Source of the DNA: Mastigias papua
Taxonomy: Eukaryota; Cnidaria; Scyphozoa; Rhizostomeae; Mastigiidae
Reading direction: 5' to 3'
DNA: 64,000 bases
Assembly: GCA_964019165.1 (NCBI GenBank)
Contig: OZ025280.1
Location: 13,510,428 to 13,574,427 of the forward strand
Under the pieces are notes generated by a model, which did no database searches, was not told the DNA's origin, and worked only from the letters and a program-made list of their open reading frames with translations. Of the stretch, positions 6,792-55,760 are shown one piece after another. A program made the position numbers and the translations under genes. The first letter of the stretch is position 1. Every line of letters begins with the position of its first letter.

Positions 6792-8283
6792 CTTGACCAG
6801 CCTTGCTTCACTGGTCATGGATTGTCGTCTTCTTCATCAAGCTGGTCAATAATATGACTGCTTTCCCTCATGACAACAGCTGCTTTTCTTTTTGGTCTCT
6901 CAGTCAGTTCCTCTTCGTTGGCTAATGGGGTTGATTCCTCTGCACCTGTCGAAAGTTCCAATGGAAAAAGTTTTTGAATCAGTCTTTCAATAAGATTTCC
7001 ATTCGATAGCTGAACTATTGCACCTCGGTGTATGCTGTCCTTTCCAGTGATCACGTCAGTTATATGACCAAGTCTCCATGCAGCACGATTACGAATAGTT
7101 TCGTTCTCAATAGTGACGATATCACCGATATTTATCCTTGGTCAGTTATGTGTTTTGCTTTGAGCCTTATGATGTTCTCGGAGATCTACGAGGTACTCCT
7201 TCTTCCATCGTGTCCAGTAGTGCTCTATTACATATGACAAATATTGTTCTCTTGTTCTTGCAACACTTGAAGTCTTGTTGTAATCGATATCTTTGTACGT
7301 TCTGTAGTCTGGCAAGCTCAATAATCTTCAGCCAATAATAAGGTGTGTAGGTGTCAATGGCTCTTCAAGTTCTGATGAGTATAAGTATGTAAGAGGCCTT
7401 GAGTTTAAGACTGATTCGATCTCTGCAACTATCGTTTGTAACTTGTTGTAAGTAAGTCTCGATCTGGATACATTTTTCTTTAGACATGACTTTATCCCAC
7501 GTATTAACTGCTCGTCAAATCCTCCCCACCACAGGGCCTTGTCAAGGTTGAACTTCCATGTAATTTTACGATGTGCTAAGTACCTAGCAATTTCCTGCGA
7601 TTTGAACAGCGTCATAAGTGTCTTTGATGCAGCCTTGAACGTTTTAGCATTGTCAGTTACAATTATGCTTGGAACTCTCCTTCTACTCACAAACCTTGTA
7701 AGACATAAAAGACAGGTAGATGTATTCAAATCTGGAACAATTTCTAGATGTATGGCCCTGGTTGTGGCGCACGTAAATAATGCAAGGTATACTTCTTTTT
7801 CAAAGACTTATCTTCTGTTCTAATAAGAAGAGGTCCCGCAAAATCAATGCCAACAGCTTGGAATGCATGAACTTCTCGAATGCGAAATTCTGGTAGTTGG
7901 CTCATATCTGGTTCTCCTTAAGATAACCCTTAAATACGGGTGCAAACTTTGCATTGTCCAATAATCCTTTTTACAAGCTGGCATCCCTTGACAATCCAAA
8001 ATTGTAAATGGAGTTCTGCAAAAGTTTCTTTCACACCATTATGCATTACGTTTGAATGGCTTTCCCATATACAGTCGACTCTCATTATTACGGACACCAT
8101 CAGGACCAAAATGTTGCGTCTGCAATTACGAGAGTCCGTAATAGCGGGATGAGACAAAAATCACTAATTTATTGGTTGAAAAATTATTACGTATTTTTAA
8201 TCAATAGCAATCGTGTAATTTTGTTAGCAGAGATTTGTATTGCTGGAGTTTATAAATTTTGTATCATTTTGTAGTTTGTGGTT

Positions 8284-9940
8284 TTATTGTTGTAAAAAGT
8301 ACTCTTCAAGTGTCGTCTGGTGTGATTGCTTTTTCAGTGCATGTGCTGCAACTTTACTACTGAGGCATGCGAATTCACTTGCTATCGTCGCAAGACGATG
8401 CTGGATGAGAAAAACTTCTATGTCTCTCACCAACTTTGCAACATCGTGATAGCTCTTCAAGCTGATAGTCGGAGTGACTTCATGTATAACAGGATCATCA
8501 TTATCTTCATCATCATCATCATCATCATTATCATCTGATATAACCACTTCCACTTGCCCATTCATCACTAAAGAATCTAGCAGTTCCTTTTCATTATCCA
8601 TGCAGTAGCATATAGGCAGCTCGGTATCTGATAGCAGGTATGTATAAGGAGTGATGGTGGTTTCGGGTGAAACTTCTTTACTTAGATTTTGGAGATCTTC
8701 ATTGATGTCATTGAGGTCACTGAAGGGATCTGCCTCCTCGTCTTCTATCAGTGTATTGCTCGAAATTCCCCTAGAAGTGAAACACTTACTGATGGCTGTC
8801 ACCTTAACATTATGCCATGCTTCCCCACCCAGTTCATTGCCTGTAATACGTTGAGTGATTTGCTGATCTCTGAGGCGTTCCTTTCACTTGAGGTCATTGT
8901 GATGATAAAGCGTAGCAAAAGCTTTCTATAGTGAACTCTGAAGTTTTGAATAATGCCGAGATCAAGAGGTTGCAACTCAGATGTGCACTTTACAGGAAAA
9001 AACACGAGCTTGATGTTCGAGTAGCATCCCTTCAAATCATACGGATGGCAACCAGCTGAGTCGAGAAACAACAAAATTGATCGTTTTTTGCTTTACATGC
9101 CCTGTTACATTGACTCAAGATCTTATGCAGAATGTCGGAGGTCATCCATGCATTTTTTTGGCTGTAATATTGACAAGGAAGGTCCTCTCTGTGGACATTT
9201 TTCAAGCACCTTGGATTGGCATACTTTCTGATAACTAGTGGTTTCATCTTTTCTCCAGTTGCAGAGGTCATCAGGGCAACAGTCAGACGTTCTTTGAATT
9301 TCTTACCACCTTTACATTTCTTTGATTTGGCAAAAAGGCTTTTGTCTGGAAGAGCACGATAGATGAGGCCAGTCTCATCTAAGTTCCAAATGTCTTGCAT
9401 GTCATAACCAGAAATGATTGAGCCAAGCCGCTCTTTCCAAGACTTCACTGTATCCACTGCAACATCAGCAGATTCTCCGCAAACTTTGTGATGTGAAAGA
9501 TTGTGTCGTTCTTTGAATCTTGTCAACCAACCACTTGAAGCTTTGAAATCAATGTAACCTTGCTTTTCGGCAACTTGAGATGCAAATTCCTGGATCATTG
9601 GACCATCAACTGGAATTAGTTGATCATTCTTGTTTTTATACCACTCCCAGACAGCATCATGTAAATCTGAAACCTGAGAAGTACGGTTTCGTTTCTTTCC
9701 TTGAGGAAGTCCTTTTTCATATTGTTCTCTTACTGATACCTTGTTTTTGATGATGTTGCTTATCTGCGTCTTTCCACACATGTATTTCTCAGCTAATTTT
9801 CTTATTCTTAAAGAACCATTAGTACTTTCATATTCTTCAACAATGTGGAATTTCTTGTCCAAGGACAATTCATTCCTTGCTCTTTTGGCTGACTTCTGTT
9901 TAGGCATGGCAAGATCGTATGAAAAGTTAGCTCGGTACAA
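8284..9940 (-). pseudogene. Tigger transposase (CENP-B/jerky type), two single-base indels
   Basis: It starts about 9925-9940 with a basic N-terminus and a pogo-type helix-turn-helix (DKKFHIVEEYESTNGSL, LAEKYMCGKTQISNIIKNK). The second CENP-B-type DNA-binding helix set follows (GWLTRFKERHNLSHHKVCG). The DDE core has DIWNLDETGLIYRALPDKSL, then LLFLDSAGCHPYDLKG and TSELQPLDLGIIQNFRVHYR, so all three aspartates are present. The C-terminus has a run of aspartates encoded by a CAT/ATC microsatellite (8505-8535). The frame breaks near 9075 in an A-run and near 8810 in a G-run. Each looks like one lost base, so the copy is young but inactive. Confidence 0.92.
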
Positions 9941-10226
9941 CTGAGCAACAATTTTCTGCGCTTCGTTGTGATGGTTTTAATCGGCCAATAGTGATCAAAG
10001 TTTGAAATCCGGCAATGCCACTGACATGTCAACATTGTCTTGACATGTCCTGACATGTTTACTTCTCTGACACTCCTATTTGTAAACAGTGTGCAAATAC
10101 AATTGTGTCTGAAAACAGACTAGGCTGTTGGTTGTAACTTGAATTTAGCAACCCTGCACCGCAGACATACGAGACACACAGACCTTTGCAAAGCATAAAG
10201 CTAAGCCCAAATTTAATCAAAGATTC

Positions 10227-10625
10227 ATGCTAAGTCAAGAGCAGAACGCACACTTTAGGATGTATTGCTCATGGCTGAGAGGTCACCATGCTTACAAAGA
10301 TGTGTTCAGTCCAGAGATTGGTAAAGTGTTGACGCTTCAACGAGAACCAGAAAATGGTATAGACAGAAATGCTGTGGCAATTATTGAAGAAAATGGGCGA
10401 ATTGTTGGGCACATCCTCTTTGGATTATCTCAAATTGGTTCTTCTTTTTTAAAACGAGAATGCAACAGTGGGGTTACAGTTATTTGTGGCAAGCGAGTAA
10501 ACAGAGGGGCTGGATTGGGACTCGAGATTCCAGTTATGCTTAAACTTTATGGGAAAGCAGATTTCTTAGAGAGACTCGATATGCTGATCAAGAGCAGTGA
10601 GACTGCAAAAAGGCGTTGTGTTTAG
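10227..10625 (+). CDS. HIRAN-like domain protein carried inside the Tigger element
   Basis: This is an intact 132-residue frame on the strand opposite the transposase, between the transposase 5' end and the right terminus. Residues about 11-115 match the HIRAN pattern as I know it: CSWLRGHHAYKDVFSPEIG, then LQREPENGIDRNAVAIIEEN (the REP-N-D-NAV signature), GRIVGHILFGLS, and a closing LGLEIPVMLKLYG. HIRAN domains in HLTF/Rad5 proteins bind DNA ends at stalled forks. Stand-alone HIRAN-like proteins are common in invertebrate genomes. The start is uncertain: the first ATG is at 10227 and a second at 10260. No stop or frameshift is seen, in contrast to the transposase. It may be a passenger gene, or an older insertion caught between the Tigger ends. 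Confidence 0.7.
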   Translation: MLSQEQNAHFRMYCSWLRGHHAYKDVFSPEIGKVLTLQREPENGIDRNAVAIIEENGRIVGHILFGLSQIGSSFLKRECNSGVTVICGKRVNRGAGLGLEIPVMLKLYGKADFLERLDMLIKSSETAKRRCV

Positions 10626-10799
10626 AATCAGAAGGGATATCAAGCAAGGAGTCATTGAAACGACCACCTGGAAAACACAAATCTGTTGCTAAAAATCAAC
10701 ACAGGGCTAAAATTCCGCTGAAATAGATTGTACAATGGATGCTTAAGATGGACACTTAATTAACAATAGTCTTAATTAACACTTAATCTGACGGTTATA

Positions 10800-10990
10800 T
10801 TCAGCATGTGTCCGTTCTATCGAGAGTTAAATATTTTATATGTTCAAATGGGACCACACGTAGTGTCCGCATTTCCGTATTAGTGAGAGTCCGTTATAGC
10901 GAGAATTATGTTCAGTCACTTCTTTGTATTTTCAGTGGGGGATTTTTTTTGTGTCCGTAATAGGGGGTGTCCATTATATCGGGGTGTCTG
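10800..10990. repeat. Tigger right-end subterminal repeats and terminus
   Basis: Several copies of a word close to TGTCCGTTATANCGAGAG occur: near 10807, 10867, 10886, 10952 and 10967, ending GTGTCTG at 10990. The left end (8072-8155) has the complementary words CTCTCATTATTACGGACA and GAGTCCGTAATAGCGGG. Such arrays are probably transposase binding sites. Confidence 0.65.
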
Positions 10991-11551
10991 TAAGGCACAA
11001 GATGACTGTAATAAGATTTGTCAAATGGTTGTTTCTTGGAAGCATATTGGGTGTTTGGTCTGAATGTCCACATTTGAATTGTTTAATCGGCTGCCACATC
11101 TCAGTATTCCATCATTATCTTTAAAAATTCCAAGCTGAGGGGTTATCTTTCTCAAATAGTCTTTGTCAAACATGCACTGAGACGACTGAATGAGAATTTT
11201 TTCAGCTCTGTCTGCTTCATCTATCGACAATTCGTCAGTTCTTCTATTGCTCCTATGTCGACAGTTGTGAAAGAAATGTAGCACGTAAGCTGTTATTTGT
11301 ACTAGTTTCTTGTATGTACTGTACTTTTCTATGGAGATTACTTTGGCAAGAGTAAGCACTATTTCCGTATTCATAGATAGAACTGCTCTTTCAGTTTTAC
11401 TGTTCCCTCTCAAGTCTCCTGTACAGTCCACGGGCATGTCTTCTAATTCAACAGAGTTTTCTGATGCAAGGGGGGATAGCTGAGCATTCATAAGCCAATG
11501 AGGACCATTGCACCACATCGAATTCTTTACTATTTTTGATACATTTGACTT

Positions 11552-14121
11552 TCATGTGGGTATGTCTACAGAATTCTCCTCCCCTTTACAATGTGACCAA
11601 CAACCAGGCTTAACAAGTCCCCTGATCTCCTGCACAAGATTTTCCACAAACAACTTCCACTCTCTGGATGTCCCCTTTATCCAGTACAATGAGGTTATCG
11701 AATCTGTATAACATCTCATAAATTCTATTGCTACCAATGGACTGAGCATTTCCTTCACTGAGATAATCAGCCATGCGAGTATTAGATATGAAAGCAGTTC
11801 AAGTCATGGAATAGTTAATCGAGACAATGGAGCGACACACGATTTTGACATCACAAGAGCGACAGAGGGTTTGTCTTCTATTATAACTCGTGCGTATACA
11901 ACTGCAGCATATGCTTTCTCTGAGCTATTGCAGAAACTGAACAATTGACTCTTCTTTGGGCTGGCCAATCAATGTCGTAAAATAGTATCGTGGCAGAGAT
12001 AGTTCACCAATGTCCTTCAAAGCTGACATCATTAGTTTCCAGTCCTTTTGCCACTGGTCTGAAATGTCACTGTCCCATTCAAGTTTCAGTTCAAACAGTT
12101 GTTGTAAGAATACCTTCCTTGGTGTGACTATGGGTCTAATCAGCTGAAGAGGCTCAAAAATGCTAGCTATTGTTTTGAGAATAGTTCTCTTAGTAATCGG
12201 TGTGGTTTCTGTGATGGTTGATAGTTGTGATAGTTTAAAGCTGAGCATATCGGTTTCGCTATTCCAAGGAATACCCAGCACTTTAGAATCCATTTGGTCT
12301 GTATTTGATAGCTGCCGTGTGGTCGATTTCACGAAGGATTCATCTTTTTCTTCTGAGCTTCACTATTATTCATCTCATTAGCTAGTGATAGAACTTCATC
12401 TTTCTTTATTTCCTTCATGACTTCTGCAGAGTTTGAACGCCATTTTCTCAAGTTAAAGCCGCCCTTCTGCATTATAATTTTGGATTTATTATAGAGATCC
12501 ACAACTTCCTTAATTGTATGACTTCCTGAGTTAATGTCATCGGCATATAGATAGTTCAAAAGATTATTGCAGATTTCAGGTTCTTCTGTAGAGTAACCAT
12601 GGATGTGCCATTTCAAAGTTGCATTCAGAAGGAACGGACTACAGAAAACTCCAAGAATTACACGGCAGAATCTGTACGCTTGAATCTTTCTTTCTTGTCC
12701 GCTAACGCTAGAGAACCACAAAAAGTGCAAGATGTCTTGATCAGCTTCATTAACAGATATCATTAAGAACGCCTTCTCTATATCACAAGTTAGAGCAATT
12801 CTGTTTGGATGGAACCTTGTGAGTATTTCTGCAACAGTTGTTAACAAACAGGGTCCATCATATAGACAGCTATTCAAAGACACTCCCTCAGGTGTGCTTG
12901 CCGACGCATCATAAACGATTCGAATCTTCGTTGTGGTTCTATCCTGCCTTATCACGGGATGATGCAGCAAGTAGTGAGTATGGCCTACTGGGCTTTCTTG
13001 GCTATCAGCAACTTTTTCAATAATGCCCAGTTCTTCCTGTCCCTTAATAATAGCATCATACTCCTTCAAACACGTTTGATTTGCATTCAATTTTCTTGCA
13101 AGTCCTTGCAATCTTTTCTGACATAAACTATAGTTGTCTGGAAGAAGAGGGTGCTCCTGTTTCCATGGCAATCTGACTTCATACCGTCCATCCTTGAATT
13201 CAACTTCCTCCTCTAACTGTTGATATACGGAATTTTCCTTTCGTTGATCAATGCCTATGCTCTCCAATTCCCAAAATCTGGATACTTGCTCTTCAAGTCT
13301 GTGCTCTTCCGCACATAACACGTGTCTGGGCAAGAGTAGTGCAAGTGGAATTTGCTTCTTACAGTTTGGTATTTCGCCAGAAAGTATCCAGCCGAGTCTA
13401 GATTCCAGAGCAATAGGACCCCCTATTTCCCCTCTTATGTTCCCTCCAGTTAAGAATGACCAGTAGAAGTCTAGTCCAATAAGAATGTCAACATCTAAAG
13501 TACTGGAGTTAGTTTGAAAATCAGCCATTTGCAGATTTGAAAGGTGAGGATAAACAGTAATGGCAAAATCTATCTCCTGGTTTCTCAGAGGTGCGCAGAC
13601 AACAGGAACAACATAAGCTCTGACATATGTACTCATGTCGCTATAAGGGCTTCTTATGCAGAATTGAGTTATGTCACAAGAAAGAACCTCTCCTTCATTG
13701 TTTCCGAACGTTTTACTAGTCAAAGTCTCGCGTCCAACAGTTGGTAGGGCCAAAGACGTAGCTTGGCAGAAATGTAAGACCGTTGGCTACCACTGTCAAA
13801 AATGATTCGAACAATGGCTGTTGGCTGAGAAATAGCCGGTGGAGAAATGTAACCCTTGGCCGTTTGCAAGAGAATTGCGTTTTTAGATTCCACAAGCAGT
13901 AGAAGGGCTGTGGAGCCGCGGCCTACCATTCTCATTGGAACTTTGAAAGGTGTAGGTATTTCCACTGGCGCGGGTTCTTTCAGGGAATTGTCCAATGTGC
14001 TCCTCTGACTGTAGGGGATTAAACCCAGCTGATTGGAAACTAGCACTCTGAGGAGCAGATGACTGATACAACTGTAGAGGATTAGCTTTCTCGATGTGTG
14101 GCATTTCACCTCTCCATTCAC
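11552..14121 (-). pseudogene. BEL/Pao #2 protease, reverse transcriptase, RNase H
   Basis: The protease motif IIFDSGSQRSYISAKL lies near 13760-13810 with its aspartate intact. A long frame (13753-12329) then holds VDILIGLDFYWSFLTGG, LGWILSGE, RIVYDASASTPEG, LTCDIEKAFLMISV, the catalytic YADDINSG near 12540 and GGFNLRKWRSN. The connection domain follows in another frame (ITKRTILKTIASIFEPL), then an RNase H piece (YTDSITSLYWIKGTSREWKLF). Three or more frame changes are needed to read it through. It would have supplied polyprotein cleavage and cDNA synthesis. Confidence 0.88.
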
Positions 14122-27570: not shown

Positions 27571-30500
27571 TCATCTTGTGCCATCTGCTCCCAGCAGGTT
27601 GGCTGTTATGGACCTCCATTCTTGTCTGTTCTCCGCAGCTCTCAGGCATTCGCCATAAGTCTTTCCTGTCCAGTCCTTGATGTTAGTTGCCCATATAATT
27701 CTTGGCCTTCCTTTTCCCCTTTTTCCATTTATTTTCCCTTCTAATAAAAGTCTCTGTAGCCCATTCTGTCTTACCATATGCCCGAAATATTTGGCCTTCC
27801 TTTTTCTGATACTATCAATCAGTAGTCTCTTTATCTTCATCATGCCCAACACCTCTTCATTCGTCTTATGCTCAGTGTATGATATCCTTAACATTCGCCT
27901 ATAGCATCACATTTCAAATGCTTCCAATCGCCTACTCATAGCCCTTGAAATGGTCCATGTTTCAACTCCGTAGGTAAGTGTAGACCAAACATAGCATTTT
28001 AATAGCCTAAATCTCAAACTAATGTTTATGTTTCTGCATGTCAACAATTTCTTCATGTTAGCGAAAGCTCTCTTTGCAATTAGAATACGTCGCGCTATTT
28101 CTGCATCACTTCTGCCATCTTCCCTTATCATATGCCCTAGGTAAACGAACTTAGATACTTGCTCAATTGGCTTTCCGTCAAGTTCTAAATCTATTTATTT
28201 ATGTGCCGTTCTACTAACTACCATACTCTTTGTTTTTACGATGTTCATCTTCATTCCATACGGTTTCCCACATGTAGTTACTTTATCGAGTAGTGTCTGT
28301 AAATCTGCTGCATTTAAGGCTATTAGTGCTGTGTCATCCGCATATCTCAAATTATTAATATTCATACCACCGATATTAACTCCATTTCTATCTATTACTT
28401 CTTTAAAGATTTTCTCTGTATACAAATTAACTAAATTTGGTGACAGGACACATCCCTGGCGAACACCTCTCTTGATGCTAAATTCTGATGAAAACTCTGT
28501 TTTTGTTCTAACCACAGCTGTTTGATCCCAGTATAGCCCTGCAATAAGTCTCAAATCTTTTTCATCAATTCCTATTTCCTTTAGACACTCTATCAGCTTG
28601 GAATGTTTCACTTTATCAAACGCTTTCTTATAGTCAATAAAACAGATAAAAACGTCTTGTCCCAGCTCAATAAGTCGCTCACAAATAATTCTTAGATTGA
28701 ATATACCCTCTCTTGTTCCAATCCTAGGTCGGAAACCACTCTGAAAGATGCTAATTTCTTGATCTATTTTTGCTATAACCCTTTTTTGTATGATCTTCAA
28801 TAAAAGCTTCGTCATATGACTCATCAAACTTATGGTACGAAAATCTGAGCAACTGTGTGCATTTGGCTTTTTTGGTATAGGCACAAAGATTGATTGTCTC
28901 ATGTCTTTTGGAATAAAACCAGTGTGATAGATGTCATTGCATATCTCTGTGATGATATTTAGGTTGTTGCTATCTAATGCTGCCAAAACCTCAGCTGATA
29001 TTTCATCTGGGCCTGTGGCCTTCCCTCTTTTCATTGCACTAATTGCTGCCTCGACTTCTGACTTTAGGATTGCCTTACCAGTAAGAGCATTGTTGTCTGA
29101 CAAGGGCTGTCGTTCATCATCATACAATTCAGCTATATATTCAACCCATCTATCTGCTACATCTTTTTGTTCAAACAGTATCCTTCCATCTTTGCTCTCT
29201 ATGCATCCAGAACTCCGTTTACTTGATTTTAAAGTTGTCAGTTGTTTTACTCTATTATGCATCTCCTTAACTTTGTGTCCCCTATCAAGTTCCTCCACCT
29301 CTTGGCATTGCTGTATCATCCAATCTTCTTTTGCATTTCTACACATGTCAATAACTTCTCGGTTTAACTTGTCATATTGCTTTGGATCATTATTTTTGGC
29401 TATTCTTCTGAGATCCATTTTGTCTAGAATGTCATCTGTCATCCACTTCTGCTTCTTAGTAATACTTTTTCTCGGTAGAACCTCTTGTGCAGTTCTATGT
29501 AAAGCGTTCTTTACATAGTCCCATTTCCTCTGTACTGTATCTGTACTATCTGGTGCTTGTTCCTGTTCCTCTACATTAAGAACATCAAATTTATTTTGAA
29601 TTGCAACATTGAACCTACTTCTGATGTTTTCCTCTTTCAACATATCTAGATTCAGCTGACCTTGCCTTCCCTTTGTTTGTACTTTTTTAAGCTTAATTTT
29701 CAATTTCATGACTACTGGGTTATGATCTGAATTGATATCTGCTCCTGGGTATGTCTTGACTCTTCTAACTCCATTCTTGAACCTGCTGTTTATCATAATG
29801 TAATCTATTTGATTTCGAGTTTCTTTGTCTGGGCTTTGCCATGTGTAGAGCCTTCTTGGATGTTGCTGAAACCATGTGTTTGTGATTACTAGATTGTGCT
29901 GTTGGCAAAACTCTATTAGCCTTTCACCACGTTCATTTGTGTCTCCTAGCCCATATCTTCCAACTGTATTCTCTAACGTGGTTCCTACCTTAGCATTAAA
30001 GTCGCCCATTATGCATGTAACCTCTCCAGATTTAATCCTTTGAATCACATTCTCTACCTTTTCATAGAAAGCCTCAATTTCCTCATCTGCATGATCTTGA
30101 GTGGGAGCATACACTTGTATTATATTAACATTGAAAGGCTTTCCTCTTATCTTCACCATTATTATTCTGTCTGATACCGGCCAGTAACCTATGATTGAAT
30201 TTACTAATCTTTTCCCTAAAATGATACCTACTCCATTTTTATGTTCATCTCCTCCTGAATATATCATGGTATATTTGTCCTTCGCTATTCTTCCATTCTC
30301 TGTCCACCTCACTTCCGATAGTCCCAGTATGTCAATGCTCATTCTATTCATCTCCTGCACAGCATTGTCTAGCTTTCCTGATTGATACAAAGTTCTGACG
30401 TTCCACGTCCCAATATTTAAGATTTCACCTCTAGTTTTCAGTACTGCATTGTCAAACAACCTCCTTCCAGTTGGGTTTGGGTGGCCATCGTCATTCGCAG

Positions 30501-30612
30501 CCCTATTAGCCGGATGGCTACTAACTTCTTCCCTGTCATTTGAATCCGGAAGAGTCGCAGGGGGCTCAACTCGTCCTTCTCTATCTTCTTCAATTCTATT
30601 AACCAGATCCAT
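27571..30612 (-). pseudogene. RTE ORF: endonuclease and reverse transcriptase, two nonsense codons
   Basis: One frame of 1,013 codons begins MDLVNRIEEDREGRVEP. The endonuclease has IGTWNVRTLYQSGKLDNAV, GLSEVRWTENGRI, NIIQVYAPTQDHADEE, CIMGDFNAKVG, RNQIDYIMINSRFKNGV and INSDHNPVV. The RT has KRGKATGPDEISAEVL, SIFVPIPKKPNAHSC, SLMSHMTKLLLKIIQ, QSGFRPRIGTREGIFNL, CFIDYKKAFDKVKHSKL, KRGVRQGCVLSPNLVNLY and the catalytic YADD (about 28332-28344). A C-terminal region (YLGHMIREDGRSDAEIARR, AKYFGHMVRQNGLQRLLLEG) follows TAA at 28195-28197 and a TAG at 27907-27909. The natural stop is at 27571-27573. It would perform target-primed reverse transcription in the nucleus. Without the two stops the frame is complete. 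Confidence 0.93.
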
Positions 30613-41099: not shown

Positions 41100-43150
41100 T
41101 TATTGAGGATGTGTCTCTGCTTTGAGTGTTCTTGTAACATCAAAACACTCTATTTTTAGCTCCTCTACGACTCCAAGGGCAATCCTTTCTTTGCTTTGTT
41201 TTGATGTGTCCTGCCAGTTAACCAGCATCTCTCTGACTAGCTTGTTAGTTCTTTGCACTACCCTAAATAATGAGGAAGAGGGGACAAACAAGTTGCCATA
41301 AGCCTTGAAGGATAGGAGGTTTGTCTTGCTCTTCATATCATGTTGATGGTCAAATGATTGATAAAATGCTGCTGCACACTCGGGGCATTTCATGTTACCA
41401 ACCATTTTCTTTGCAATGAAGCCACCAATATAGAACAAGGCATCATATTTCCAATCATTGGATGATTTTAAAAGATGATAAACAGCAGGATCAACTACTG
41501 TGCTATTTTCAACAGACTCTTGAAATACATCATTGGAAGACTGAATGGAATCTTCACCTATATCAGTGCAATTTGCTGTTCCTGGAGCATCTATATTGTT
41601 CTTTTATAAAAGTGCGCTCTAAGTGCATATTTGAACTCTAAGACATTTGGATTATTGTTCCATCCAAAGCGACCCCTTATCTTACTGAAAACCATGTCCA
41701 ATGAATCTTGAGAGAATCTGTATGTCAAAACATATGGGAATGGATTATTCTCTTGGTACAACAGATGTTTACTTATGGCTAGAACAGACTTTGCTGAAAT
41801 GATAAAGCCAACAATTAATGTTTTCCGTCTTCCTCTGAATAACAAATGATCATCTAGGTCTTTTAACTGCATAAGATAGATTTCAATTTCTTGCATGTAC
41901 ATTTCAATCTCATACATGTCAATGTTTTCTTTTGTTACAGGTTGTTTTGTTGCCTTTCCAAACTTATTTGTACTATTAAGGATGTCGAAGATGTCATTCA
42001 TTTTCTGTATAAAGTTTGTTGTGGCAGCACTATTTTCAAAACCTGGAGTTTTATGTATGACAAGAACTGTATTGCTGCTGCAACAGAAGTGCTTAACGTT
42101 TGAGCAGCAACTTCTCACCTTCATTTTGTGATTTTGCCACTTACTGTGGTGTCCTTTCAACTTGTTTCCTAGATGTAAAATATCTTTTGCTTGAACCTGG
42201 TGTAAATTTACAATATAATCCCACTTGATTGTGTCATTGTGTAAATCTTTGATTATTCCAATATCTGCTAGTGCATTTCTTGCCAGTTTAATCATGTGGC
42301 ATGCATCTAAAATTATATAAATATCTCCCTCTTCTCTACAGGGATGTTTAAAAGAGCCATCAAACTTTGAACGTATTTTGCACCCCAGTCTATCTGCGGT
42401 GGTTACGTTTTTTGATGTGCCATCAAAAATCACTGCATGAACATCAAGATAGGACTCTGTTAGAAATTGTATAGATTCCCAAATAATCTGTGCTTGGATA
42501 TCTGCATTGATGCTGTTGGTTAGAAAGTATGCAATAGGGTATTGCCACTGTTCTTTCAAACCAACTACCATTACAGCAAGGACATGGTTAGCTGTGTTTT
42601 CATTTGCTTCACCCTGGATGCTTCCATGGTCAACATTGCCAACAATCCTCCCAGATTTTTTTTCAACCAATGTTTGTGCTTTGAAAGCCATTTCATCTAG
42701 GATAATAATGCAGTCCCGGTGATCAGGTTTAACAAGATCCATGAGTGATCTTATGACTTGCATCAAGAAGCCCAGGCTCTGCTTCAACATTGGCTGCCCA
42801 ATTTCTGATTGTTGATAGGCTTGGTAGACAGAGAGCTTTCCATACAAATCTGTAACCCCTTGGGCTGTAGTAATGAAGGGTTACAGCACATTCTTTCATA
42901 GATTTGTCATATCTACGACCTGTGTTCCTATCATTGTTCCTTGATTGGGTTTTAAATAGATCTGTTGTCATTTCATTACAGTTTTGCACAAAAACTTCTG
43001 CACTGTCATTTGAAAGGTATTTGTAACTATGTAGTTTTTTTATCAGACAGTGTATTGTTGTTGTGTTACGGATTATTTGTGCTTGTAATCGTTTGATCTG
43101 TTTATTTTTCTTTTGAGACCAAATAGTGTGTATCTCTACATGGGCAAAAA
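41100..43150 (-). pseudogene. P-element/THAP9-like transposase B, near-complete catalytic region
   Basis: Reading leftward from 43150: a basic coiled coil, a helix-turn-helix block (KECAVTLHYYSPRGYRFVW, LPSLSTIRNWAANVEAEPG), then after one frameshift a 418-residue frame (42847-41591). It contains CIIILDEMAFKAQTLVEKK (first aspartate), HVLAVMVVGLKEQWQYPIAY, AVIFDGTSKNVTTADRLGC (second aspartate), the GTP-binding-type insertion (IYIILDACHMIKLARNALAD) and the signature YRFSQDSLDMVFSKIRGRFG. A C-terminal zinc-like part lies in another frame (FYIGGFIAKKMVGNMKCPEC, 41438-41100). Relatives are the P element and human THAP9. The THAP domain was not found upstream. Confidence 0.88.
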
Positions 43151-51716: not shown

Positions 51717-54700
51717 TTAAACATAGTCCAAGAATCTTGCAGGTGGCTTAATAGTTTTTGAGCTAGCTCTTCTAGTCAGAGTCTGTGGTGGCATGGCTGG
51801 AGTTTTCCTATTGTTTGGCGAACTCTCCCTTCCTCTTGGTTCCTCACTAGCTGTTGGAGTGCTGTTTGTTGCATTTGTGTCTGGCATTGGTTTTATATCC
51901 TCTCTGTTCCTGCGTATAACATCACCATCTGACTGTACAAGATATGATCTATCTGATAACTGTTCAAGACACTTTCCTGGTTGCCATGTCTTCCTCTTTT
52001 TGTCACTAACTCTGACCTCTTCTCCTATATATAATTCAGGTAGAGGCTTGGCATTCTTGTCAAAGTAACTCTTTGCTTTTTGTCTCTTGAACTCTAGACT
52101 GTCTGATACTCCATCTATGACTTCAGGAAAGAGTAGATTTGAAGATACTGGCAGTAGTGTTCTAGTCCTTCTGGACATTAGACGTTGACACGGACTGCTT
52201 TTCATCCCTGCAGTGGGTGTATTGTGATAGTCCAGTAAGGCTAACCAAGGATCTTTGTTATCTGCCATTGCTTTCTTTAAAAGGCTTTTTACTATTTTTA
52301 CAGCAGACTCTGCTTTACCATTGGACCTTGAGTGGTAAGGTGATGAAGAGATGTGCTTAAACTCCCACTCTTGAGCAAAGTCTTTGAATTCTTGACTGGC
52401 ATATTGAGGTCCATTATCTGTAATTAGCACATCAGGTATTCCATGTCTGCTGAATTGTTCTTTAAAGAACTGTATGAGTGTAGCAGATGTTATTGACTGC
52501 AAACATTTCATTTCAATGAAATCTGAATAACCATCTACAAGAACTATATAATCTTTGCCATTTAATGCAAATAAATCCGAAAATAGATGGCTCCATGGTC
52601 TATCTGAAATCTGATGTGTCTGCATTGGCAGTTTTTGCTGTTTGGCTTGGTACTCTGCACAGATAGAACATTTTGTGATAGCTTCCTTAATTTCACTGTT
52701 CATTGAGGGCCAGTATACAAGGTCTCTTGCTTTGCGAAGACAAGATTCTATTCCAAGGTGACTTGAATGAATACGTGATATGACTTCTAAGCACAGAGCC
52801 TTGGGAATTATTAATCTTTGGCTCTTAAACAATACGCCATTATATAGAGACAGTTGGTCTCTAAAGTTCCAAAATTCTCTTATGTGTATGGGAACTTCCT
52901 CGCGTTGTTCAGGCCATCCTGTGAGTATTGTTGTTTTTGATGTCTGCATCACAGGGTCCTGTTCCATGGCTTTCTGTAGCTGTGAGAGCCTCTCGCTGCT
53001 AATTTTAATTGTATTCAGTGGGTTAATTTCTTCAAGCTCAAGTGTGAAAATTTGGAATTCAGTTTCTTGAGTGTCTGTATTTGGCACTGTAGCCCTTGAC
53101 AAATGATCAGCAATGTACATGTGCCGACCTGGCTTGTATATTACTTCCAGGTTATATCGTTGCAGTCTTAGCATCATTCTTTGTAACCTGCATGGTGCCT
53201 CTAACAGTGACTTTTTAAATAGTGATTGCAGTGGCTTGTGGTCTGATTCTACTGTGACTTTCTGTCTTCTAGTGATGTACTGTGAAAATTTGTCACAGCC
53301 AAATACAATAGCTAGGCATTCCTTTTCAATTTGAGCATACCTCTGTTCTGTTGGCGACAGTGTTCTTGAGGCAAATGCAACAGGCTGCCCATTTTGCAGT
53401 AAAGTAGCTCCTAGACCCTTTTCACTTGCATCTCATTGGAGTGTAGCCTCTTCATCTAAATCGTAGTATTTCAGAACCGGGTGCCTAGTGACGAGTTGCT
53501 TTACTTCACTGAATGCTTTGTCATGTTGAGGCGAACATAAAAATTGTGCTTTCTTTGTTGTCAGTTCTCTTAGAGGGTGAGAGATGTGTGCTAATTTTGG
53601 CATAAATTTAGCTAGATAATTTATAAAGCCTAGCAAGCTCAATAAATCTTGCTTTGATGTTGGCTTTGGCATGTTCTCAACGTCTTTTATCTTGTCAGGA
53701 TCAGGTTTAAGACCATCTTTTGTAATGAGGTGACCCATAAATTTTACTTCTGTCTTGCGTACGTTCATTTTTTTGCTGTTCAATTTAAGATTGAATTCAC
53801 TTGCTCTGTTCAGCAATTCTTTCAGATTTCTATCATGATTTCTCTCTGCTAACTCCTGTGTATCACCATAGCCTACACCAAGTATATCATCTCTCAAAAC
53901 CTCCACACCTGGTAAATCAGCAAGACAGTCTTGTAGTCTCCTTTCAAACTCCTCAGGTGCTGTACTAATGCCAAAAGGCATTCTGAGAAATCTGTATCGA
54001 CCAAAGGGTGTCCAAAATGTAGTTAACCTACTACTCTGCTCGTCGAGGGATATCTGGTAGAACCCATCTTTGGCATCTAAAGTGGTGAACACTCTGGCAT
54101 TACTTAACTTTGGCAACACTTCCTCTAGTGTTGGCATCTGATATTTTGGCCTTTTAAGTGCTTGATTTAGATTGTTTGGGTCCAAACAAATTCGTATTTT
54201 TTGTGGTTTTGCAACTACAACCATGCTGCTAATCCAGTCTGTAGGTTCCGTTTCTTTCTGTATTATACCTTTGGCTTCCAGTTCAGCTATCTTTGCTTTC
54301 ACTTCCGAGTGCAATGAAACAGGAATACGTCGTGGAGCATGTTGTACTGGTGCACAGTTCTCGTTCAATACAAGCTTTGCTTTCCCAATGTGACCAAGTC
54401 CTTCAAACACATTTTTGTAGTTCTGTAGTAGGGTTTCACGGCTAAGTAAAGATGTCCTTATTTCAGTCATATTGTTGATGTTGAGCTGGATCAGGCCAAG
54501 TTTCTCACATGTATCAGCAGATAGCAATGGTTTGTTGCTACCTTTGACTACCTGGAACTGTATTATTTCAGTCATCCGTTGCTGTTTGTTATTATTCTCC
54601 ACTTCCAGTGAGGTTGTTCCCATGGGTATCATAAGTGAACCATCAAACAGGCGGAGTTTGACCTTTGAGTCTTGAAGTTGTGGATTTCCATCTTGAGCAA

Positions 54701-55760
54701 TCCTAGATAGGTCGTCATAGCTCATAACATTGCAAGTTGCACCGGTATCAAGTTGACATGTTAACTCTGTTCTGGAGTGACCTGAGTTGCTTAGAAAAAT
54801 TACATTAGCAACAACTTGCCTCCCTTGACCTTCTACAGATGTAACTTCCTCTATTTGAAATATTTCTTCATCCGTTTCCTCTTTACATCCGTCTGCCAGT
54901 GCGTGTATACGTCTTGTTGACTTTGAGGATAAACATACCGAAGCGAAATGGTTTTGTTTTCCACAATTATTGCATGTTTGTCCGTAGGCCAGACATTCTT
55001 TCAGCTTATGTCCTTGATCACGTCCACAATGATAACATTTTCGTTTCGTGATGTTCGTCTCTTTTTGTGCTTGTTGTTTGTAGTTTGGTGCTGCTTTGCT
55101 AGCTTTTGTGGGGGGCTTTGAGGTTACCTTTTTGTAAGACCTGGTACGAAATACGTTTACCCCTTCTACCTCACTCGTGGATGCTTTCATGGCCTTCATC
55201 TGTACGTTAGCAACCTCACTTGCGCGGCATATATTCAAAGCTTTATTTAAGGTTACATTTTCCTCCTTGAGAAGGCGTAACTTTGTTGTTTCATCTCGAA
55301 TTCCTAGGATAAGTTTGTCGCGTATAAGCTCATCAGTTAGCGTGCCGAACTCACATGAAGAGGATAGTTTTCTTATATTGGTTAGAAATTCATCTATTGA
55401 TTCGTCAGTGTTTTGAGAACACAAATTGAAAATGTACCTTTCATATACCACGTTCCGCTTTGGTTTGAAATGCGCTTGTAATGCCTCCATGCATGTGTTC
55501 ACGTTTCTGCGTTCGTCATCGGTAAGTTTCAGGTTCATGAAAATTTGCATACACTCTCTGCCCATGACTGAACGTAGTGTTGCTAAACAGATTTTCGGAC
55601 TCCTTTTGTCGAGGCCCGTTGCAATTTCGTAGTCTTCATATTGCTGTCGAAAAAACTCCCAGTTTGCGATTTTATCGCCGGTACATACCATCGGAGATGG
55701 GATCGAAAAATTTGACGGGTAATTCACTGAAGGTGAACCTTCTTGATTCGTCTCAAGCAT
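51717..55760 (-). pseudogene. Gypsy #2 gag-pol, one frame with a single stop
   Basis: The frame starts at ATG 55758-55760 and runs 1,347 codons to 51717. gag: WEFFRQQYEDYEIATGLDKR, LTDELIRDKLILGIRDET, knuckles CYHCGRDQGHKLKEC and CNNCGKQNHFASVC. Protease: CQLDTGATCNVMSY. RT: AKIAELEAKGIIQKETEPTD, RICLDPNNLNQALKRPKYQM, LDAKDGFYQISLDEQSSRLT, RFLRMPFGISTAPEEFERRL, and the active site VLRDDILGVG, where many relatives have Y-x-DD. A TGA at 53433-53435 replaces a conserved Cys just before DASEKGLGA, the RNase H start. Integrase: HSSHLGIESCLRKARDLVYW, DVLITDNGPQYASQEF, SSPYHSRSNGKAESAVKIVK. The tail ends RFLDYV. Without that stop it would be a complete polyprotein. Confidence 0.95.

Follow-up and report, generated by a model that had tools for sequence, protein, structure and literature searches.

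Why does a cut-and-paste transposon carry, beside its transposase, an open reading frame (ORF) that resembles a HIRAN domain? The question is raised by a stretch of 64,000 nucleotides from the scyphozoan Mastigias papua (assembly GCA_964019165.1, contig OZ025280.1, positions 13,510,428 to 13,574,427 of the forward strand), here called the window, in which a Tigger/pogo element of 2,937 bp, assigned below to family A, occupies positions 8072..11008 and encodes a HIRAN-like protein on the plus strand (10227..10625), divergently from its DDE transposase. We suggest that a Tigger/pogo clade has this ORF as its second gene and that the encoded protein handles DNA ends. Taken as a whole we regard this as the best explanation, at a probability of roughly 0.55, and its parts differ in strength: it is highly probable that selection acts on HIRAN as a second gene of the element, and end handling as its task has slightly less than an even chance.

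A preliminary description of the window had read a frame of 132 codons, which starts with ATG, as a HIRAN domain, and profile search and fold comparison both return that identity. Residues 30-80 (10314..10466, plus strand) align to Pfam HIRAN (PF08797) with E=2e-5 and 24.8 bits, a bare pass over the gathering cut-off of 24.7. The HIRAN chains of HLTF match the protein at E 0.0014-0.0018 in a sequence search and at 2e-7 to 4e-7 when a 30-row family profile is used, and its predicted fold matches the HLTF HIRAN beta-barrel. In structural alignments HLTF HIRAN (PDB 4xzf, 4s0n, 5bnh, 6kcs) is 19-25% identical to the transposon proteins, which, unlike HLTF, are standalone products of 130-170 residues without a RING or SWI/SNF motor, and which also differ from it by an extra conserved block, around GKRxNRGxGxGLEIP in the A clade or GKRKREVGLVVPA in the D/E clade. 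The frame had further been described as free of frameshifts, and in this respect the description has to be corrected: relative to three sibling copies it has lost one base near codon 127, a deletion that shortens a 166-residue protein to 132 residues and removes a lysine/arginine-rich tail, whose out-of-frame remnant lies at approximately 10605..10725 (plus strand). The intact 166-residue form is found in the sibling L010, and also in P0001, a protein from another data set; among nine relatives examined, the last 30 residues hold 7 to 13 lysines or arginines.

Does the ORF belong to the element? A whole-element DNA search, in which the best 40 of 261 candidates were scored and a simple repeat crowded the candidates so that copies may have been missed, found the HIRAN ORF at the same place in all four full-length family A copies (93-100% identical), and a family A transposase search likewise gave four matches, at 89-100%. 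The alignment of the four copies (2937, 2936, 2938 and 2906 bp) continues across the ORF, interrupted by nothing larger than small indels; HIRAN-less deletion derivatives of family A may exist beside them. Lying inside the terminal inverted repeats (TIRs), the gene thus moves with the element. Two of the siblings carry broken HIRAN frames, L011 with one stop and L012 with a 16-base deletion and stops. As originally placed, the ORF sits between the 5' end of the transposase and the right terminus, its ATG at 10227 facing the transposase ATG at 9907 across a spacer of 319 bp (9908..10226), a putative shared promoter.

The carrier proved to be of Tigger type, as had been proposed, by its domains, its TA target and its TIRs. 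Its transposase is read from the minus strand in three frames: an N-terminal one (9032..9940) with CENP-B_N, HTH_Tnp_Tc5 and the first part of DDE_1, a middle one (8799..9074) with the remainder of DDE_1 and the second and third catalytic aspartates, and a C-terminal one (8284..8802). The two frameshifts already reported between them are real, and the four-copy alignment shows both to be private to the window copy. In the DDD triad 32 residues separate the second and third aspartates, a spacing that we take to be typical of Tigger.

The same arrangement recurs well beyond family A. A HIRAN protein search of the 347-Mb genome found 68 places, 66 after merging, and the neighbourhoods of 26 of these were read, with three more loci read over the HIRAN match alone; 17 of the 26 have a pogo-type transposase, whole or in part, next to HIRAN. 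At least five TIR families, A to E, encode a HIRAN-fold protein head to head with a DDE transposase; these transposases are 24-51% identical to each other, and the recurrence bears out the earlier reading of HIRAN as an accessory gene. Family A is represented by four copies among the neighbourhoods read; family B by seven (about nine in all), mostly of 2.87-2.88 kb, with the TIR CAGTCAACTCTCT; family C by three of 2.94-2.96 kb (CAGTAAGGCCCCGC); family D by one of 3.0 kb (CCGTAAATCCTCGAA); and family E by two of 2.69 kb (CCGTATTTCCTCGAA). The TIRs are short and start with CAGT or CCGT, and the exact end motif is flanked by TA at both ends in 5/7 copies of B, 3/3 of C, 1/1 of D and 1/2 of E. Start codons of the divergent genes stand 0.2-0.5 kb apart throughout A-E, as measured on one copy per family, the E transposase start being uncertain and the D transposase lying in two frames. 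DDE_1 and HTH_Tnp_Tc5 exceed the Pfam cut-off in all five families and CENP-B_N in A and D only; C, D and E may represent other pogo clades than Tigger proper. The HIRAN proteins of B, C and E score 27.4, 32.7 and 26.4 bits against the same Pfam cut-off. Family C may be recent, since its HIRAN frames show zero differences among three copies over the codons compared. Ahead of the Tc5-type helix-turn-helix, the N-terminal part of its transposase (L042:5307-7094) includes a C2H2 finger-like stretch that scores below the Pfam cut-off. The transposase frames of L042 and L043 run to 596 codons.

The pairing is also apparent when the genome is entered from the transposase. With the family A transposase as query, and the best 130 of 180 candidates scored, 95 matches merged into 85 loci, and HIRAN lies within 4 kb of 19 of them against a chance expectation of 0.14; this count, like that of the 66 loci without HIRAN taken up below, is rough, as single-query searches miss distant members (the transposase query missed family C). 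Eighteen of the 19 pairs are divergent, with HIRAN encoded on the other strand and placed 5' of the transposase; the remaining one involves an additional fragment next to a copy of family B. The partnership is the property of a clade, given that the 12 best matches (E 3.4e-40 or better) are all accompanied by HIRAN and the next six, by this query, are not. Pogo relatives without a nearby HIRAN match, 31-32% identical to family A, lie at G000:C4:8962741, C14:6478419, C5:10857111 and C1:14262763; the frames on C14 and C5 run to 562 codons with no stops, that on C1 to 546 codons with one. These HIRAN-less relatives are a natural comparison set in the same genome.

Is the second gene maintained by selection? 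Comparison of the ratio of nonsynonymous to synonymous substitution (dN/dS) across copies of one family, as first advised, proved unhelpful, both genes being near neutral at that depth, and constraint emerged between subfamilies only. Between family E and its sister subfamily (L049, L050) HIRAN shows a synonymous proportion (pS) of 0.84-0.88 and a nonsynonymous proportion (pN) of 0.28-0.32, with five codon shuffles per pair giving a pN of at least 0.51; in the pair of D with L051 one shuffle approached the observation (pN 0.415 vs 0.362), and the E-subfamily pairs are clear. HIRAN is therefore conserved at the protein level between subfamilies. An excess of pS over pN between distant families was discarded: in 9 of 11 HIRAN pairs (all but A-C and D-E) the identity seen was attained by one or more of 20 codon shuffles, and the comparison is left unused because codon alignment itself lowers pN. 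Homology of the seven HIRAN types follows from pairwise BLASTP, 20 of 21 pairs matching at about 1e-6 or better and D-G at 3e-4. The transposase tree and a 24-row HIRAN tree both split (A,B) from (C,(D,E)), the HIRAN split with support of 93/91, below the starred level. We note that this recurrent pairing gives the impression of a long-standing association that works, and not of baggage picked up by accident.

These results bear directly on two simpler accounts of the locus. In one, the element picked up a fragment of a host HIRAN gene and carries it without use, a possibility that the preliminary description had left standing. The HIRAN frame in the window is indeed truncated, those of L011 and L012 are broken, dN/dS within families is near 1, and a host HIRAN gene probably exists (the best Pfam HIRAN match, at C5:9712966, scores 76 bits). 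Against these points stand the single head-to-head layout shared by at least five families, the constraint on HIRAN between subfamilies and a transposase that within families looks no less neutral than HIRAN; we consider such a passenger very improbable. In the other, an unrelated host HIRAN gene would have come to nest inside a Tigger by chance, which the presence of HIRAN in all four full-length copies found, the 19 pairs where 0.14 were expected and an empty site that reads as a retroelement without the ORF reduce to a negligible prospect. Chance and host-gene readings were both rejected on the sibling copies and on a cross-table of transposase and HIRAN coordinates.

What, then, might the second gene do? 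Excision of the Tc1/mariner type exposes 3'-OH ends. Papers are cited here by PubMed Central number. In HLTF the HIRAN domain has the 3' end of single-stranded DNA as its ligand; in isolation it blocks the removal of Cas9 from its cut by HLTF, and it binds best to the complex when a 3' strand is exposed there (PMC11237066). On these grounds a standalone transposon HIRAN could cover the element's own ends or repel remodellers. We posit that a small nuclear protein, with a basic tail in the A clade, would bind the free single-stranded 3'-OH ends made by the transposase or, alternatively, 3' ends at replication forks; that it would protect the complex left after cleavage against remodellers of the HLTF/Rad5 type and against resection, and/or direct the transpososome towards forks; and that cut elements would as a result be reinserted and not degraded. 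The equivalents of HLTF D94 and H110, residues that we take to serve in the 3'-end pocket and that were numbered by counting from residues named in papers and mapped by sequence, appear to be kept in both HIRAN clades.

Coupling to forks, the bolder part of this proposal, is a weak idea and in our estimate an unlikely one, drawn from a PIP-box (PCNA-binding) pattern in family A together with the Drosophila pogo transposase, which reportedly binds PCNA; a literature search for pogo transposase with PCNA found nothing. The pattern, QTTLEEYF, lies at the C-terminus of the transposase (8296..8319, minus strand), is intact in L010 and is changed in the decayed copies L011 and L012. The scan, for which we assumed the form of the PIP-box, covered 3,653 residues, with 0.23 matches expected. 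Less likely still is the fullest version of the scheme, a large old pogo/Tigger clade of eukaryotes working as a two-component machine in which a DDE transposase, linked to PCNA in family A by the PIP-box, and a HIRAN end-binder would carry out excision and reinsertion at forks, HIRAN guarding the 3'-OH ends against the fork remodellers of the host. TIR elements with HIRAN alone would then be satellites, either supplying the end-binder or depending on autonomous copies for a ride.

Two other functions for a selected second gene have to be set beside end handling. HIRAN might be a regulator encoded by the element, one that controls how the transposase is expressed or how the transpososome assembles by binding to the shared promoter region or to subterminal repeats; TnpA of En/Spm and the second protein of MuDR are parallels. 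The divergent genes, with their 319-bp spacer in A and 0.2-0.5 kb in B-E, suggest co-regulation, and short TIR elements that match no transposase still retain HIRAN frames. What HLTF HIRAN recognises, on the other hand, is DNA ends and fork structure, not sequence (PMC4666394, PMC11237066), and we think a regulatory role improbable. A factor directed at the host is similarly doubtful: here the standalone HIRAN would act as a dominant negative against HLTF/Rad5-type repair or silencing generally, not at transposon ends, as isolated HLTF HIRAN does against HLTF in vitro (PMC11237066), whereas the few copies per family (from at least one to about nine) fit an end-acting factor at least equally.

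Several observations count against a general end-handling partnership. HLTF R71 and the base-stacking Y72, which with Y93 and N90/N91 are named as its 3'-end pocket (PMC11366124, PMC4666394, PMC11237066), appear conserved in neither clade, the Y93 equivalent seems partial in D/E (16/28) and that of N91 confined to the A clade, so the choice of ligand may differ from that of HLTF. Family D HIRAN scores 19.4 bits, under the Pfam cut-off, and type G gives no Pfam HIRAN match, in a comparison that covered A to E and G. The pattern scan detected no PIP-box in the transposases of families B-E, that of D being incomplete. Within families dN/dS is near 1 in both genes, with few changes per pair, although near-neutral divergence is expected after insertion for any transposon gene. 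A 5-row HIRAN tree does not resolve the order of A, B and C, and in both 5-row trees long branches meet, C being long in each. By the family A query 66 of the 85 transposase loci, fragments included, lack HIRAN, and Passer, a pogo relative, moves in human cells although its one ORF encodes only the transposase (PMC9976928); HIRAN is therefore dispensable for pogo transposition generally. Lastly, nine of the 26 neighbourhoods read, with HIRAN types F, G and H, contain nothing that matches the A-E transposases.

In these last neighbourhoods an absent transposase means no match to A-E, and long ORFs lie beside HIRAN in L037 and L038. Type F comprises five loci of about 1.3 kb with partly resolved ends, for two of which the reading spanned just 3.3 kb; type G has two loci of 1.08-1.09 kb, whose TIRs are clean and flanked by TA; and type H has two loci. 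TA flanks the exact end motif on both sides in 2/2 of G, 0/3 of F and 0/2 of H. The type G loci (L044:4419-5503 and L045:4363-5460) are TA-flanked TIR elements with open HIRAN-like frames of 131 and 159 codons, and it is possible that they are HIRAN-only satellites. A TIR-like end, CAGTATTCTCTCC, is seen in type F at L029:4402-5666, L030:4057-5384 (approximate) and L037:4477-5175, and type F HIRAN is 42-46% identical to that of A and B.

How far does the arrangement resemble what is already described? With A HIRAN as query, protein searches gave 43 relatives (E up to 1); the HIRAN proteins of families E and C gave 197 and 11 (both at E up to 0.01). The named relatives of A HIRAN come from corals, Desmophyllum pertusum once and Porites lobata four times. 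No relative of the transposon-type HIRAN was detected in viral contigs, scanned with both profiles, or in GTDB contigs, scanned with the D/E profile, the scans beginning from two short patterns each. Tigger/pogo elements of the IS630-Tc1-mariner group share DDE_1 with HTH_Tnp_Tc5, the TA target and short TIRs, and in the passages cited have one or two ORFs encoding transposase (PMC7386202) and no accessory HIRAN gene (PMC7386202, PMC7325037). The ciliate TBE/Tec elements of the Tc1/mariner group are alike in having extra ORFs beside a DDE transposase, one of them opposite in Tec, and differ in that these encode a zinc-finger protein, a site-specific recombinase or products of no assigned function, not HIRAN (PMC7325037). 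Prokaryotic HIRAN proteins are known from bacteria, phages and genomic islands, such as lp_0118 of Lactobacillus plantarum (PDB 3k2y), and HIRAN genes occur in prokaryotic mobile DNA, on a phage contig (PMC7785012) and in HIRAN-HipA clusters near diDNases (PMC11706625), in both cases outside DDE cut-and-paste elements as far as those passages go. It has been suggested that eukaryotic HIRAN perhaps derives from bacterial restriction systems and comparable mobile elements (PMC2292703). Full-text literature searches, which reached neither Repbase nor most subscription journals, turned up no HIRAN gene in a transposon of eukaryotes; an earlier database entry may therefore exist. Accessory genes in DNA transposons are already known, and as far as we searched a HIRAN gene in pogo/Tigger is new.

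The window copy itself interrupts a retroelement, which we presume from the joined integrase frame to be BEL/Pao. Its ends are those common to the four aligned copies, the right one falling at 11008 by that comparison, where the arm found by repeat search stops 24 bases earlier, at 10984. The left TIR (8072..8098, plus strand) reads CAGTCGACTCTC...GGACACC; the right one (10983..11008, minus strand) is degraded here, the other three copies ending in GAGAGTTGACTG. The TA duplication stands at 8070..8071, as given by the reading of the flank and by the joined flanks, and at 11009..11010; three of the four family A copies have TA at both ends, and the right side of L012 is GA. Joining the window flanks with a single TA yields an integrase-like frame that runs across the junction, and the empty site is then a retroelement without the HIRAN ORF. 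Its two parts, both on the minus strand and approximately delimited, are the 5' side (11011..14121, with RVT_1 in 12332-13753) and the 3' side with the integrase (7328..8069). The window is dense in transposons, given an ORF with P-element-type transposase domains (a TNP-like RNase H and a GTP-binding insertion domain; 41594-42847, minus strand), a long interspersed element (LINE)-like reverse transcriptase/endonuclease ORF of 805 aa (28198-30612) and a retroelement whose ORFs encode an integrase and a reverse transcriptase (51720-55760).

If this reading is right, the coral proteins annotated as HIRAN domain-containing or left unnamed (Desmophyllum, Porites) may, judging from their sequences, be transposon proteins. 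More broadly, a conserved second gene with a 3'-end-sensing fold would provide a concrete molecule through which to ask how cut-and-paste elements treat their own broken ends and deal with the replication and repair of their hosts.
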